Shown: in pieces, positions 4,627 to 60,400 of the stretch
How the letters are laid out: every line of letters starts with the position of its first letter
Position numbering within the stretch: the stretch's first letter is position 1
Assembly (NCBI GenBank): GCA_020746105.1
Contig: CM036617.1
Span: forward strand, 20,466,037-20,530,036
Length of the DNA stretch: 64,000 nucleotides
DNA from: Trogon surrucura
Taxonomy: Eukaryota > Chordata > Aves > Trogoniformes > Trogonidae
Direction of reading: 5' to 3'
Made by a program: the position numbers and the translations under genes
The notes under the pieces: model-generated
Told to the model about the DNA's origin: nothing
What the model saw: only the letters and a program-made list of their open reading frames with translations
Database searches by the model: none

Positions 4627-7600
4627 CTAAGTAGCAAAAGTAGAACAGGAAGGAAGATTTGTGAATGTTTGGTTTTAAAGCAAAATTGCTCACTTTCTGC
4701 AAAAAAATTAAATAAAAGCTAAGGCTAGAAATAGCAGTTAACTTGCAAACAGAAACACAAGTGTTTGCCACAAGTGTTCATCTATTGTGCAAGCCTTCCT
4801 ATGGTCCAGTATAAACACTCACTCACATCTCTAAGATTGCTATACTTCCTAATCCAAATACACTTCCATGCATTTTGCATTTTGACAGTATCTTATTTTT
4901 AAATTTATAAATTAATGCACTTTTTCATGCAACATGTACTATTTGTACACACTAGTTTGCTTGATACTTACCACTTAAAATAATTTGTGCTAAAACTACA
5001 CTGAGTCATTTATGTTAACCAATATAGCTTTTCCTCAGAAACAGAATTGGAGAGCGCAGAGCAAACATTATGCTCTTAATAGCACATGACCAAAATGTTT
5101 GTATCAAATCCAGCCCTTTTAAATAAAGGAGTTCTGTGTAAATCTTATCCCTCCTGTCATAGCCTCTTAGTGATGGATTTCTGGGCCAAGTCACAACTGG
5201 CAGAACGTGGGTGCAGCAGTGGGTACTACTCCTGAGGCCACTTGCAAAAGAGGCTGGGACCAAACACACAGGCAATACAGCTGCCACTCCCTCCCACAAA
5301 ACTCACCAACACTCAACCTACCTGGCCTCAACCTGCCCAGGTTCTCAAGTTCATTGCCAGCCTCACATCTCAGAACTGGTAGGATATGGAGCATGCAAAA
5401 TGAAGCGTTTCTCCTGCTACAAGCTGAGCACTGCTGTTGCACCCACATGGCAGCACTTAGAGGAATGCCAGCAGCCCCATCGGGGTAGGGAAAGCACATG
5501 AAGGCTTGTTTTCCACCTACTAGAAAGACATCAATTACCTAAGGCTTGTTCTAACCACTTCCATCAGATAAAACTTGGTTTCAAGAACCTGTCCTCTTTA
5601 TTCCCAGAGACATAAAAACATTGCCTTCTGGTTAAGAAGGTGGAGGAGATGCCAAACTGCTTCTAATTTGTCTTAACTTTAACTTGAGGTGCTCTCCCCA
5701 CTCAGTGCCTTGTTCTCCACAAGTCCCTTTGAGCTGGAGAACATAAGTATGTATACTTGTCTTACTGGCAAAGACACTTCTTCTGTGAAATTTCCCTCTT
5801 GCAGGGCCCCGTTTGAATGCTTCTTTGTATCACACAGAGATCAGCTAGAATTACAGGCATGCAGGACGGCTCTCCTGACCTGCTCTAGACATTGACATCT
5901 GAGCTAGACATCTAGACTCTCTTTATAATCACTAGGGAGAAAAAGGAAATCAGCATCCAAAAGCTGGTATCTGGAGAGTTGTGTCCTAAAAGGGTCTAAT
6001 TCTCCACAGTAACTGGCAGATGAGTAAGCAGTACATCCACCTTGTAGAAAATCCATCTTAGGTGAGCTGACTCCCAAGCACAGTGTCTTCCCAAGTTCAT
6101 CAACGACATCATCTATTGCTGCCTTAAAAGAAAATCATAAGCCAAGGACAAACATAACTTCTACAGCTGGCCACAGGCCTCAAGTTTCATCACAATTTCA
6201 TGAAAAGGCTTAAATAGAGGCTGTTGTAAGACTCAACCCTCAATGTGTTAGCAGGCATTGCTCCTATCAGAAGTAAGTCCGGCTGAATCTCTGTTGCAGG
6301 TGGCTTCTGAACTCTATCTTAAAAAGGAAATTATTAACCCACCATATATGGAACATGAAGCTCTGCTAACAACTTAATTAGACATTAAAATGGCAGAGAT
6401 AAGGAAGTATTTTCTTCCACTCAAAGGCAAGGCATAGGCACAGTAAAGTAACTCATCTAGCTGCAGACAGGAAGGTCTGCATAAAGACAGGACTAAAGAA
6501 AAACCTCAGATAGTGTTTGGATTACAGACAAGCATCACTGCAACTAACACAGGCACCACACGTTCTGTGGAAGGTTTTTTTTTCCCCTGACATGGCAACA
6601 CAACTTCTCTGAATGACATCAGCAAAGTCAACAAAAGCGCTCTTCTGTTGGGGGTGCTTCATCCAAACAATGAGTTGTGCTGGTAAAGCTGTGCTTGATG
6701 AGCGATTACTTTTTTTTCCCCCCTGTTTGACATGGATTTGTGGACAAAAGATTAACCACAGGTTCCAGACAAGCATTTGAACCACAGCCACAGTTAAAAA
6801 CTGTAAATATGTTAAAGAGTTAACTGGCTCTTGAAACGCTTCAGAATCATTGCAAATTACTTTTCCAATTAAAAACCGATTTATTTCTTTTGATACCATA
6901 TTCCTCAACTTTGGTACTGACATCTGAAGAGTGCCCTAAGAATCATGCATGCTTTGCTCTTGGCCTTTTGACTACAGCTGTAATTTTATGGTTACAGTTG
7001 CTAAAAGGCAAATATTGCTTGGCAGCAGTTGTTACACCCTTCCCTATCACTTAAATCAAGGCACTTGTATCCACGCCCTGATGAGATCTTTTTCCAGTCA
7101 TTTTGAGCGTACGACTTTTCTCCTAGATCCCACTACCAGTTCCATCTCTTTCCATTTCATCATGTTTGAGAAACTTGCGTTTTTCAACATGACTAGAGTT
7201 TTCTGAAGGTGTTTTTCTTATCATATACTTAAGATTCTGCATTAGCGTTTTTGATAATAGAAACCATTTTTTTAATTTAAAGGAGCATTTCCAGTAGAAA
7301 GTCAGTTCCTTGCTAACAACATTGTTTTACTTTTTATTCATCACCTCTTCTTATGTTGTTGTATTGTTGCTATTGGAAGCTAACTACAAGTGATTGAGGG
7401 CCGGTTTAGCTCAGTGGGTTGAGCGTGGTGCTTGAAACACCGAAGGTCACGGGTTCGATTCCCGTTCGGTTCTCACGTGGGTTGCCTGACCTAGTCGAGA
7501 GGTGGCGTCCCTGCCCACAACAGGGAGGTTGGATTAAAATGATCTCTGAGGTCCCTACCAGCCTAGGCCATTCTATGATTCTACACTAAGTTTAAAACAT

Positions 7601-43164: not shown

Positions 43165-43930
43165 GAGCATTTCAATAAGCATAAGTGTAGAGTCCTGCAT
43201 CTGGGGAGGAATAACACCAGACACCAGTACAGATTAGGGGACATCCTGCTGGAAAGCAGCCCCATGGAGAAAAACCTTGGACTCCTAGTAGACAGTAAGT
43301 TGTCCACGGGACAGCAATGTGCCCTTGTGGCCAAGAGGGCCAATGGGATCCTGGGGTGCGTTAAGAAAAGCGTGTCCAGCAGGTCCAGGGAAGTTCTCCT
43401 CCCCTTCTACTCTGCCCTGGTGACACCACACCTGGAATACTGTGTCCAGTTGTGGGCTCCCCAATTCAAGAGAGACAGGGACCTACTGGAGAGAGTCCAA
43501 CGGAGAGCTACGAGGATGATTAAGGGACTTGAATATCTCTCCTATGAAGAGAGACTGAGAGAACTGGGGCTGTTTGGCCTTGAAAGGAGATGGCTGAGAG
43601 GGAATCTTTAAGTATCTGAGGGGTGGGTGTCAAGGAGAAGGAGACAATCTCTTCTCAGTGGTACCCAGTAACAGAACAAGAAATATTGGGTTTAAGTTAG
43701 AATATAGGAAGTTCCACCTCAACATGAGGAAAAATTTCTTCACTGTGAGGGTGACAGAGCACTGGCACAGCCTGCCCAGAGAGGCTGTGGAGCCTCCTTC
43801 TCTGGAGACTTTGAAAACCCGCCTGGACGCGTTCCTGTGTGGCTGCCCTGGGGGATCCTGCTCTGGCAGGGGGGTTGGACTAGATGATCTCTGAGGTCCC
43901 TTCCAACCCCAAACACTTTTATAGTATAAA
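43165..43930 (+). repeat. CR1 LINE 3' fragment, sense, young-looking
   Basis: A plus frame open from 43066 to 43611 reads [71 protein letters not shown] and [17 protein letters not shown]. The C-terminal part and 3' UTR follow (GGTTGGACTAGATGATCTCT, GGTCCCTTCCAACCCC), with a worn tail near 43925. It is one of the least decayed copies in the window. It lies between the two promoters and points towards IFT88. Confidence 0.95.
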
Positions 43931-54400: not shown

Positions 54401-57400
54401 TCCCTCGTCCAGGTCATTGATGAATATATTGAACAGCACTGGCCCCAGCACTGACCCCTGAGGGACCCCACTAGACACAGACCTCCAGCTAGACTCTGCC
54501 CCATTGACTACAACTCTCTGATTTCTTCCCTTCAACCAATTAGTGACACACCTCACTAATACATTTTGTAATGCATTTTCTATCACTTCATGGTTCAAGT
54601 TAGAAGCAGTGTTTTTGTAATTTTTTCTGCTGCTGACAGCTTCTGATCAGAGAGTATAAAACAAGTCTATCAGTTTATTATGTTCATTTAAGATAAGTAT
54701 CCCTACAGACCTATCCTCACGTTTCTCATATAATGTCTGAATTTCACCTCCACTAGGTGAGCCAACCTGCTTTGTTAATTTTTCTTGGGCCTCTTGCATG
54801 TATGACCAATAATGTTCTCTGTTTCATGATGACAAAACGTCGTTTCTTGTGTAGATTATACCAGACTATTCGGAGGGTCCTTTAGGATGTTTTTGTTAGT
54901 TTCTGGCAAGTCCAGCAGAATATCCATTTTCTGGCAGAAGTCAAAGTTGCCAATTCATTACCTATAAAGCGGCCAAGCTGGATTTACCTTCAGTCATAAG
55001 GACTAAAAATCAAGTTATATTTTGCGAAGTATCTCCTTCATCACTAGCTGCCAGATAGCTACCTTAAGAAGTAGCCATTATTTTCTTAATCATTGTGCCC
55101 TTGCAGAGTCCTAAAGGACTGCTCATGGCACTTGTAGGCCCATATCATTACTTCTACTTAGAGTCTTGACACCAGTCTGCGGAAGTTTATAATTGGATAA
55201 AATAGTTTTAGTGTAACTCAAAAGGCGCATTTGAACATACACATGACATACCACTTATGGACAGATAAAAAAGGGAAACAGCTTACTGGCATCCAGAGTT
55301 ATCAAGGTGTGTGTACAGCATACATTTGCACAACATGTTTACTTTCTGCCTTCCAACACCTTCCTGCACCGGGGTTCTGCAGCTGAGGAAAAATGCCAAG
55401 CCTAAAGGCTCCCTCTTTTTTTTTTTTTTTTTTTTTAAACATTTATGTGCACTTTCTGTGATTAATACAAGTAGAATAATCTTCTAGGGTCACCATACTC
55501 TCATGACTGTGGTGTATATATGTGTGTGACTATACTTCTCTAAAATTAGACAGCTCAGTAGACTCAGGCAACTGTATATCTGCTTATTGCTAATTAGCAC
55601 CTCTGGGTTATGTTGTTGCTGCTTTTCAGGCATTGGGTACAGTCTGTGCATTCATGGAAAATGAACATGAGTATATTCTTTTCAGACTTGTTTTAAATGT
55701 CTTTCTGTCATCTTGAGTTAGTAAAATTCAAGGTGTTGCTAAATTCTAGTATTTTATTTAAGGCTCTGGAAAAAGCAAAAGAGGCTGGAAGAAAGCAAAG
55801 AGTATTGGTGAGACAACGTGAACAAATTGCCACTCCAGAAAACATCAACTTAGACCTCGCTTACTCAGTAAGTGCTTAGAATTGTTCAACAAGTGGAAGG
55901 TGTGCTAAAAAACATCCTAAAGAGACATTTCAGTGTGTGTGTGTGTGTGCAGGCATGTTAGGAAGATGAAGTGTATGACTTCTTCAAGTTAAAAACTTAA
56001 CATTTGATTGTAAAGATCTTTTAGTATCATCAAGTCAATTCCTTGCAATCCCAAGTACTAGAGAAACCCCAAAGTCAGCGTTACATGAAGAGAGATCTAC
56101 TCACACACAAAACCTGTGTATCAAAATATAACAGATGTAAAATCTGTGCTGCAGAAATAAATAGTCTAGAAAATGTAACATGCCAGGAAGATGGGAGAGA
56201 TCAGATGCTGCTTTTAGCTTGAAATGTCAAGTGACAGAGAAAATATTACATGAAATAGGATATATTGATATTTCTAAATCCTGACTCTTAAAGCAGATAT
56301 CTAGTTTTACATTTTGGCTTTCAAATTAATAGAATTAGTCAGACCTAGTAATTTACTTTATGGTGAAGGTCAGAGTAAAGCTGGGGAAAAAATGTGGAGA
56401 TATCTATCTGATGCCAGCAGAACTTTGGTTTTGAAACAGCACTTTGGAAAAATTGTTTTAATAAACTGAGTGACCGTAAATAATTGGACCATTTTCCACA
56501 TGTTGGAAGTGATAAATTGCACACAGTTTCTGAGAATTATGTTGTATGAATGCTTGTTAATAACCTTGCATTAAAACATAGTGTTTACTTAGGTCTAAGG
56601 CCTGCTTAGCATGACTTGTAATGTAAACAGTTTTATTACAAAAATAAAAGTGTTACCTAGAATAAGTAGATTTGAAGCTTGGTTTCTCCATGTCAATGTA
56701 CAAGAACAGAGAAGCATGAAAAATGGGAAGCTTAAAACTGTTAAAAAGAATACTTCCAAGGTAAAATTCTTTTGAAATTATCTCTTGTGAATTCAAGTTT
56801 ATTTCTGTTGAGAGAACAATGTATTTTCTTGCACCTATAGTTCCATTTTTCTATAGGTTTTTTTCAATCTGGCCAGTCAGTATGCTGCTAATGAAATGTA
56901 TGTGGAAGCACTGAATACTTACCAAGTTATAGTGAAGAATAAGATGTTCAGCAATGGAGGTAGGTTACATTCCAAAGTCAATTAAAATTGGTAGTTGGGC
57001 ATTCACAATGAGGACTTCATCTCCATGGTGTTGACTCACAGAGATCTCAGCCCTTGTGTCTGTCAGTGAGAGTGGTGTTCCCCAGGCTCAGTACTGGGGC
57101 CAGTTCTGTTTAGTATCTTTATCAGTGATCTGGATGAGGGCATCATAGAATCATAGAATGTTCGGGGTTGGAAGGGACCTCTAGAGATCATCTAGTCCAG
57201 CCCCCCTGCAAGGCAGGATCCCCTAGGGCAGCCACACAGGAACGCATCCAGGCGGGTTTTGAATGTCTCCAGAGAAGGAGACTCCAGAGCCTCTCTGGGC
57301 AGCCTGTGCCAGTGCTCTGTCACCCTCACAGCAAAGGAAGTTTCTGTTGATGGGCACCCTGAAACAATACCTCGGTTTTGGCCGTATTGACTACCATCAG

Positions 57401-60400
57401 TGGTCCACTCTGGCCTCCAATCGGGAGACATGGAGACAGCACCATCCATAATGCTTCTGCCTCCTTTGAGAACGCACATAGAATTAGTCTCAAGGAGAAA
57501 AGGCAATGCAGAAAGAACCGTGCCTCACCAGTACCGCCTAAGGAGACTTTCCGCTCTGCCTTTTGCAGCCGTACTTGCCTACCCCACATCAGCCTTTTTA
57601 GCCATCAGCGCGCTTGTAGCAAGTGTGAGTAGAGCCCTTCCCATATCTTCATTCGCAAAGCCTAGCCATGATGATGATGATGATTGCTGGGCACCACTGA
57701 GAAGAGATCGTCCCCTTCCTCTTGACACTCACCCCTCAGATATTTATATACATTAATAAGATCCCCTCTCAGCCGTCTCCTTTCAAGGCTAAACAGCCCC
57801 AGTTCTCTCAGTTTCTCTTTATAGGAGAGAGGTTCAAGTCCCTTAATCATCCTCGTAGCTCTCCATTGGACTCTCTCCAGTAGGTCCCTGTCTCTCTTGA
57901 ATTGGGGAGCCCAAAACTGGACACAGTATTCCAGGTGTGGTGTCACCAGGGCAGAGTAGAATGGGAGGAGAACTTCCGTAGACGTGCTGGACACACTTTT
58001 CTTAATGCACCTCAAAATCCCCATTGACCCTCTTGGCCACAAGGGCACGTTGCTGTCCCATCTCTACCTCATCGTTCAATTCACAGTCATAATCAGAATA
58101 CATCTTACAAGGTAATTCTTTTCTGGGTTTCATTTCTACTTCATCTACAGAGTAAAAATGCACAGAAGGCTGTTTGGTGCAGTGTTTTTTTTCAAGTGAC
58201 ACTGATACCCCATAATGAAGTCAAATTTATGAAGAAGTTCTCTTGTCACTTTGAAACAGTTTTAAAATGCTGTAACAGTGTTTTAAAAGGCAGTAACTCA
58301 TTGACTTCTTTCGATAGGAAGACTGAAGGTGAATATGGGAAATATCTATTTAAAACAACGAAACTATTCCAAAGCTATCAAATTTTACCGGATGGCTCTA
58401 GACCAAATTTCTAGTGTCCACAAAGAAACAAGGTGAGTTTCTACTAGGAGGCATGGTTCTGAAGTACAGGTTTTGGATACAATGTGATTTGATAGTTAAA
58501 AACATAACCTAATCCTGATTTCTTTACTTAGGATTAAAATAATGCAGAATATTGGAGTTGCATTTATTAAAACTGGCCAATATGTTGATGCCAGTTCTTC
58601 ATTTGAACATATAATGAGCATATCACCAAACCTGAAGGCAGGCTTCAACCTGATCCTGTGTTATTTTGCTATTGGAAATGCTGAGCTAATGAAAAAAGCC
58701 TTCCAAAAGCTGATTGCGGTTCCCTTGGAAGTGGATTATGATGACAAATACGTTTCAACAAATGTAAGTTGGAATGAAGTAAACTGTGTATGTTTGAACA
58801 AAATGTGTCTTTCTATGGTAAATCAGGAGAAAGGAGGAGGGATGCTGAATGCTTGGACTGTACTAAATATGTAAATTGACGTGTATTTGTGCATCTAAAA
58901 TAGCTTTTCTTCTTTTACCAGCGTGAACTTAGTGTGGCAGTTCTGCTTAGAAGTATAAAATAGTGTTGAGAACATTCAAATCCTTTTTTCTTCAAAAAAT
59001 ACAATGTACATAAAATCCACACCTCACCATTGTCTTCATAATGATTTTGTTGAAACTCATCTGGGCCATCTTACATAGCTCATTTAGTGCTTTACCACCT
59101 TTATCTACATAAAATTTTAGTAAAATACTTGTAAGCTAAAATAAAGGAAGCAAAGCAATGAGAGCGAATTAATGCAAATTATCTCAAATGTGTGCTCATA
59201 AAACTTGTAACACTAGTGTTATTTTACAGAAGAAAATTGTAGTAAAATTTACAGGTGCTTACTTTAGTTCATTAGACTTTTTTGGAAACTGGACTTCTTT
59301 GTACCATGAAACCAGCAGCTCATGATGTTAAAGACAGGAAGAACTAATTAATAGGTTTAGGGTCCCCTGCAGAAAGATCATCTGCAGAAAGATCAAGACA
59401 AGCCCTTCATATTCTCTAGGCAATCTCTTTTTTCAGTGCTGCAAAGCTTCCATTTTCAGTCCTAAAAGTCAAAGATATAATTATGTCTTCAGACTGTTTT
59501 CAGCTTAACAGTAGCTGTTGCTTCCTATTGTCCTAACGTGAGCAAATAAAGTTTAATATATAAAGCATGCATATTTATCGATAAATATGTATACAGTTTC
59601 TTAGAAAATTTTTTATATTTGAGATATGTATATTAACTTCTCATACTAGAAATCATATAACAGTAACGGCCATAAACACTTGAATTAATTGAAGACTATG
59701 TAAGATCATTCACTGGAAGAAGAGCTTTAGACCGTAGAAGTGCTTTCTAAGTTTAGGCAAACTATAGTTTAAACAGACCTTCCAAGTTCTGTGTTTTGTT
59801 ATGAAGAGATCAGAATGATCTGCTCTTGATAAGTGAGGAAACTGCAAGATGATCACGCAGGTTATTGTAATGAGGAGATTGCCCGAGTCCTTATCTGCTA
59901 AATACCCCTGCAGTTCAGCAAATGCTTAGGCATGCTCTTGTTTTTAAGCATGTGAGTATTCACACCGTGATTTGGAGCCTTTCCAGTCTGATACACATGA
60001 TGTCAAGTACAGCTATTAACAACCCTAATGTGAGCACATACATGAGCAGAAAAACAAGTTTAAAGTACTCGCAATCCCCAATTTCAGACTTTGTGGTTAG
60101 AAGACTACTTTAAACTGAAGCTAACTTTTTGACATGTGAAAAGTAACTGACATTATAGACTATGTAATTTGCATCAATTTCTGTTTACAGTCACGTTGTC
60201 CATAAAATATTTAAAATGCATTTATACTGGCATAATTTGCAGTTGTTTTGTACCCCTCCAGGATGATCCACATACAAACCTGCTGATCGAAGCCATTAAA
60301 AATGACAGCTTAAGACAAATAGAACGTGAGAGGTAATGGTGGAATCTATTCTTTCTTGACTGTTATGCCATATGTTTTAGCTCCTAAAAGTATTTTCAGT

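Follow-up and report, generated by a model that had tools for sequence, protein, structure and literature searches.

The 64,000-nucleotide stretch of Trogon surrucura DNA analyzed here (the window; contig CM036617.1, positions 20,466,037 to 20,530,036) contains a 326-bp insert nested in an older CR1 long interspersed nuclear element (LINE). Judging from its sequence, this insert is very probably a dead, 5′-truncated copy of AviRTE. Suh et al. (2016; PMC4844689) describe AviRTE, found in certain tropical birds as well as in filarial nematodes, as a LINE of the RTE clade with a layout of ~0.8 kb of 5′ untranslated region (UTR), a ~3.2-kb open reading frame (ORF), and ~40 bp of 3′ UTR, i.e. ~4.0 kb. 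Membership in AviRTE had been claimed in the original prediction and is supported by ten published primers, the sites of which were chained across this genome's copies of the same family. The insert is otherwise an ordinary dead copy, one of many, of an already known family.

Anatomy of the insert

Read directly from the window, non-CR1 sequence starts at 57359, and the insert (57359–57684, plus strand) forms the 3′-most part of an RTE-clade LINE. A Cys/His motif (FCSRTC...) lies in the frame that closes at the stop codon, with a frameshift upstream of the motif. The majority sequence of 26 sister copies (i.e. 27 aligned copies minus L077, dropped as a duplicate of L069 with the same flanks) is a single open frame; the window copy is frameshifted and without the first finger Cys. 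GATGATGATGAT, the tail repeat, was matched six times in the 64 kb at one mismatch or fewer (shuffled mean 0.40). Both exact matches fell in the insert tail, and the perfect form was absent from the remainder of the window. A Pfam search of the short, broken coding tail returned nothing above the cut-off (one C2H2-finger model, E = 0.33). CR1 as the source of the insert was rejected, the insert being without an above-chance match elsewhere in the window.

The features on which the original prediction was built were all found as described: a non-CR1 tail with a Cys/His finger, a (GAT)n end, the 8-bp phrase TGGGCACC on both sides, and a single GGGTACC in the CR1 copy at 43 kb. Of the span proposed for the insert (57359..57687), the start held. 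The end lies near 57684 once the flanking duplication is extended leftward to 11 bp with one mismatch.

Evidence for membership in AviRTE

Family membership was tested with the ten published AviRTE primers (205 bases; PMC4844689). Below, C-numbers denote contigs of the genome from which the window comes (1.17 Gb in 164 contigs), and L-numbers denote loci fetched from the same genome. Primer AviRTEfull-4R matches the insert at 57657–57675 on the minus strand in 17 of 19 bases (shuffle expectation 0.02 per window at three mismatches or fewer). As expected for a 3′ fragment, none of the AviRTE 5′-UTR primers was found in the window at up to three mismatches. Genome-wide, primer 3F gave 48 exact and 30 one-mismatch matches, AviRTEint-F gave two exact matches, and 1R gave 11 matches at two mismatches or fewer, with zero control matches in each case (reversed primers for 3F and int-F). 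All ten primers were recovered from loci L001–L020 at up to four mismatches, in the order implied by the numbered, overlapping amplicons and with 14 mismatches in 205 bases when the best copy is taken for each. This order was chained across copies, since no single locus among L001–L020 held the full set; reversed primers had no match in these loci. In L009, int-F and int-R (four mismatches) delimit 126 bp (1501–1626), the published amplicon size, in this one copy. Primers 4F, 3R, and 4R lie at 755, 782, and 1797 in L003, L004, and L005, with positions in L007 that differ by no more than 2 bp, and all four loci also contain the window's 3′ end.

Spacings between markers were consistent with these results. 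The distance from the 5′ end to 3F was 1885–1934 bp in nine of ten same-strand pairs (4081 in the tenth), and that from 1R to 3F was 880–884 bp in six of seven pairs (2711 in the seventh). From 3F to a 20-base word of the 3′ UTR the distance was 2016–2040 bp in three of six pairs among the matches listed (499, 3408, and 4190 in the others). Opposite-strand controls gave zero pairs. Pieced together from several copies, the summed spacings (~1.92 + ~2.03 kb) outline an element of ~4.0 kb, as published. In the decayed sister copy L012, the RVT_1 domain was detected above the cut-off (E = 5.6e-16), and Exo_endo_phos (E = 0.022) was below it. The family in this genome resembles AviRTE in the order of the ten primer sites, the 5′-UTR amplicon, the overall length, and a short 3′ UTR (35 versus ~40 bp). 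It also does so in its target duplications, which measure 9–13 bp in four sister copies; the example published for ODC has 13 bp (PMC4844689). The window copy itself differs in being a 326-bp dead fragment with a mismatch in its duplication and a private deletion in its CR1 target.

Several observations weigh against assignment to AviRTE. Locus L018 holds 3F and 4R on opposite strands; 1F fits with four mismatches in 18 bases and int-R with three to four in 19; and the comparison covers 205 primer bases, which sample the element thinly. These poorly fitting primers, together with a comparison resting on primers instead of full sequences, would suit a related but distinct RTE family, be it an unnamed AviRTE sister acquired by a separate horizontal transfer or an ancient RTE of amniotes. 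We regard such a family as very improbable: int-F, which lies in the noncoding 5′ UTR, is matched exactly twice, its 126-bp spacing is preserved, and 3F is matched exactly 48 times. According to the same source, no AviRTE-like sequence occurs in outgroup genomes and AviRTE consensuses differ by 0.9–17% among hosts (PMC4844689). An old amniote RTE in particular was rejected, as the copies are too similar: 27 close copies, a best-match sample, average 2.4% from their majority.

BovB was rejected as well. It shares with the insert the RTE clade, target-primed insertion, and a history of horizontal transfer known from the literature, but the BovB tails listed in PMC13295347 consist for the most part of (CAA)n or (CTGAA)n repeats, in contrast to (ATG)n in the insert, and AviRTE is only distantly related to BovB (PMC4844689). 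Chance similarity or an unrelated repeat, with which the empty Pfam result for the tail would agree, is refuted by 40 nearly full-length genome matches and 263 exact copies of the 3′-UTR word against zero in the control, and its probability is negligible.

Target site and host CR1

The host CR1 spans ~57143–58059 on the minus strand and is interrupted by the plus-strand insert. Because the insert is nested within it, the insertion is younger than the host CR1, as the original prediction had it. TGGGCACC occurs at both 57351–57358 and 57688–57695, exact over 8 bp and flush with the insert, and the match can be lengthened on the left to 11 bp if one mismatch is allowed (TGATGGGCACC versus TGCTGGGCACC). 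In the uninterrupted CR1 at 43.3–43.9 kb, the phrase is present once, as GGGTACC in the same reading direction. Even if a few registers are allowed for, an exact, flush match of eight bases is unlikely to arise by chance (~1 in 10,000 or less by our estimate). The arrangement is that of an RTE-clade LINE insertion, i.e. a duplication around a 3′-anchored, 5′-truncated copy with a short tandem tail.

This arrangement probably goes back to target-primed reverse transcription of an AviRTE RNA, started from a nick in the older CR1. Synthesis would have halted after ~0.33 kb, so that the product holds the end of the ORF, the 3′ UTR, and the (ATG)n repeats and is flanked by the 11-bp target duplication; the frameshift and the loss of the finger Cys would reflect later decay. 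Both the target-primed mechanism and the horizontal origin of the AviRTE family are inferred here from knowledge of LINEs.

Compared with the CR1 at 43 kb, the host CR1 is without ~50 bp beside the 5′ junction of the insert (window 57340–57358), a detail that the first reading of the sequence missed and that is newly described here. These ~50 bp are kept in all ten other CR1 segments across the site (two from the window and eight from fetched loci, with several near-identical ones among them). At up to three mismatches, the deletion junction has a single match in the genome, namely itself; a deletion characteristic of a CR1 subfamily was rejected since the junction is unique. The deletion may or may not date from the insertion event itself.

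Among sister copies, 16 had a visible 5′ boundary; the 5′ ends of 11 of the 28 copies scanned ran past the fetched stretch and were out of view. Flush duplications of 9–13 bp were detected in four of the 16 (L007, L067, L072, and L074). L005 has a 9-bp duplication that is not flush, and in a simple search the other 11 were without a duplication of at least 8 bp. The duplication in the window is thus typical of copies where one is visible, not of every copy.

Some observations weigh against this explanation: plain target-primed insertion leaves the private deletion in the CR1 beside the 5′ junction unexplained, 12 of the 16 sister copies lack a flush duplication of at least 9 bp, and GGGCACC, identical to seven of the eight exactly duplicated bases, corresponds to AviRTE 5′ nucleotides 10–16 of copy L010. 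Owing to this shared GGGCACC, the left junction is slightly ambiguous. The left TGGGCACC might instead be a remnant of the AviRTE 5′ end, of which 7 bp would persist fused to the 3′ end, accompanied by a ~50-bp deletion of the CR1 target. The deletion does coincide with the left junction, and an exact AviRTE 5′ end is fused to the 3′ region in three sister copies (L006, L067, and L074, treated below). We nevertheless consider a remnant unlikely and a target duplication the probable origin of the left copy, because the commonest 5′-end form in the genome is GGACACC (45 matches, versus two for GGGCACC) and the bases farther left fit CR1 (TGA versus TGC, and TTCTGT upstream), in agreement also with the right duplication copy. 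The flush duplications of the four sister copies likewise speak against a remnant. The search for 5′-end forms kept 47 of 78 matches (45 of the CTTCTCCACGGACACC form and two exact ones) and dropped 31; its reversed control gave 39 matches, so that one-mismatch matches of other forms are largely chance.

Copy number, divergence, and age

All 40 scored candidates (of 800) in the genome match the insert over nearly its full length, the other 39 at 90–93% identity, and the 20-base 3′-UTR word has 263 exact copies versus zero in the control. Over 283 non-CpG sites, the window copy and the majority sequence of 27 close copies are separated by a Kimura two-parameter (K2P) distance of 0.036, and these relatives average 0.024 from their majority; the 27 aligned copies are high-scoring matches and thus a biased, not a random, sample. 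Two of them, L069 and L077 (contig C60, 6.46 and 5.73 Mb, on the W chromosome as assigned below), share flanks and probably stem from a segmental duplication. The avian neutral rate is near 2 per billion years. At this rate, a K2P of 0.036 would give the window copy an age of the order of 10–20 million years, a value that ten substitutions cannot fix closely. This range is compatible with the dates published for a second wave of AviRTE activity, trogons included (>17.7 to >20.2 million years; PMC4844689).

Internally deleted copies with an intact 5′ end

In this genome the start of AviRTE is marked by CTTCTCCAC, where L009 and L010 commence exactly. The exact first base is also retained in three of the 26 distinct sister copies, i.e. 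L006 (1465), L067 (74), and L074 (490; positions in element orientation). In these, ~11–46 nucleotides of the 5′ end are followed by a jump to the 3′ region, at differing points and with short overlaps as judged by eye. L067 is flanked twice by TATACATTACA. For two of the three junctions a genome-wide search was made, and neither recurs elsewhere. Across the fetched loci, the 5′-end motif had six matches, five of them exact, versus an average of 0.25 for shuffled motifs; the sixth (L041, one mismatch) was taken as chance. Among the matches listed for C1 and C2, six of 15 5′-end sites had a 3′-UTR word within 0.8–3.0 kb and none at 4 kb, with exact-word matching losing diverged copies from this count.

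Template jumps in LINE reverse transcription have been described. Possibly, the AviRTE reverse transcriptase of this bird repeatedly jumps from the interior of its template to the 5′ end of the RNA and so generates internally deleted, two-ended copies, a reading that we put forward tentatively; the copy in the window could be a borderline instance. If true, template jumping would readily supply the bipartite (5′ UTR plus 3′ UTR) tails of AviRTE short interspersed elements. A limited search of an open-access library turned up no report of such a pattern in AviRTE.

Distribution on sex chromosomes and satellite content

Contig C67 (87.9 Mb) contains three DM-domain matches within 0.1 Mb and three Spin-Ssty matches with counterparts on C60. 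In line with what is known of avian sex chromosomes, we take C67 to be Z and C60 to be W; C61–C66 were placed on W by contig order alone. Of 78 sites for primer 3F, 24 lie on Z and 21 on W (C60–C66), with 5.9 and 1.3 expected by length. For 1R the counts are three on each among 11 sites, and for AviRTE 5′ ends four on Z and nine on W among 47 (~3.5 and 0.8 expected). An excess on W is therefore seen with three markers and an excess on Z with two of the three, the 47 5′-end sites showing none on Z; 3F may favor longer copies. The 3′-UTR word behaves differently: 73 of its 263 copies are on C1, ~50 being expected by length (places were obtained for the first 100 of the 263, covering all of C1 and part of C2), and this surplus argues against an enrichment of short copies on the sex chromosomes.

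According to a 2024 paper quoted in PMC12651973, AviRTE has accumulated on both Z and W of Trogon surrucura, and an AviRTE consensus has been published for another trogon, Apaloderma (PMC4844689). Mobile-element specialists might pursue two points: the surplus on W (and, with some markers, on Z) and the internally deleted copies whose 5′ ends are intact.

Tandem repeats in the genome resemble published satellites of this species in unit length and base composition: (i) a 33-bp unit (33% AT) on C5 (L043), the third small contig after C2, compares with TsuSat08-33 (30% AT, pair 2); (ii) a 200-bp unit (54.5% AT) on C70 (L051), soon after C67, compares with TsuSat07-200 (55% AT, long arm of Z); and (iii) 31-bp units (55–60% AT) on C120 (L056) and C160 (L060) compare with TsuSat02-31 (58% AT; all PMC12651973). 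The first two also lie on fitting contigs. TsuSat01-165, the commonest satellite of Trogon surrucura (53% AT; PMC12651973), was not recognized in the 20 stretches examined; a 166-bp unit on C140 has 43% AT. Taken circumstantially, the satellites and the pattern on W (partly also on Z) point to a trogon as the likely host, in agreement with the original prediction that the host would be narrowed to a lineage bearing AviRTE.

Gene setting

The insert lies in an intron of the IFT88 gene and has the same orientation as the gene (Table 1). Three exons around and downstream of it follow the residue order of the solved IFT88 structure 8bd7. As a single copy the insert is of little weight; nested as it is, it shows AviRTE activity to be later than the host CR1 and could serve as a presence/absence marker in comparisons of related birds.

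Table 1 Positions of the insert, its target, and neighboring exons in the window
Feature	Position	Strand	Remarks
IFT88 exon upstream of the insert intron	56857..56958	+	IFT88 chain in 8bd7, residues 188–218; weak (E = 6e-4)
Host CR1, 3′ part	57143..57358	-	91% identity to CR1 43731–43915; ~50-bp private deletion adjoins insert
5′ target-site duplication copy, TGATGGGCACC	57348..57358	+	11 bp, one mismatch to 3′ copy
5′-truncated AviRTE ORF tail (very probable)	57359..57632	+	Broken by frameshift; Cys/His finger, then TAG (57630–57632)
AviRTE 3′ UTR (very probable)	57633..57667	+	35 bp ahead of tail; match to primer AviRTEfull-4R
(ATG)n/(GAT)n 3′ tail	57668..57684	+	17 bp; like tails in sister copies
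3′ target-site duplication copy, TGCTGGGCACC	57685..57695	+	Direct reading
Host CR1, rest	57685..58059	-	89% identity to CR1 43308–43671
IFT88 exon downstream of the insert intron	58320..58433	+	8bd7 residues 223–259; generic tetratricopeptide-repeat (TPR) designs score higher
Next IFT88 exon	58533..58763		8bd7 residues 261–332; generic TPR designs score higher

Elsewhere in the window, a tRNA-family match (Rfam RF00005, 41.9 bits) was detected at 7400–7471, near a CR1 fragment at 7521–7583.

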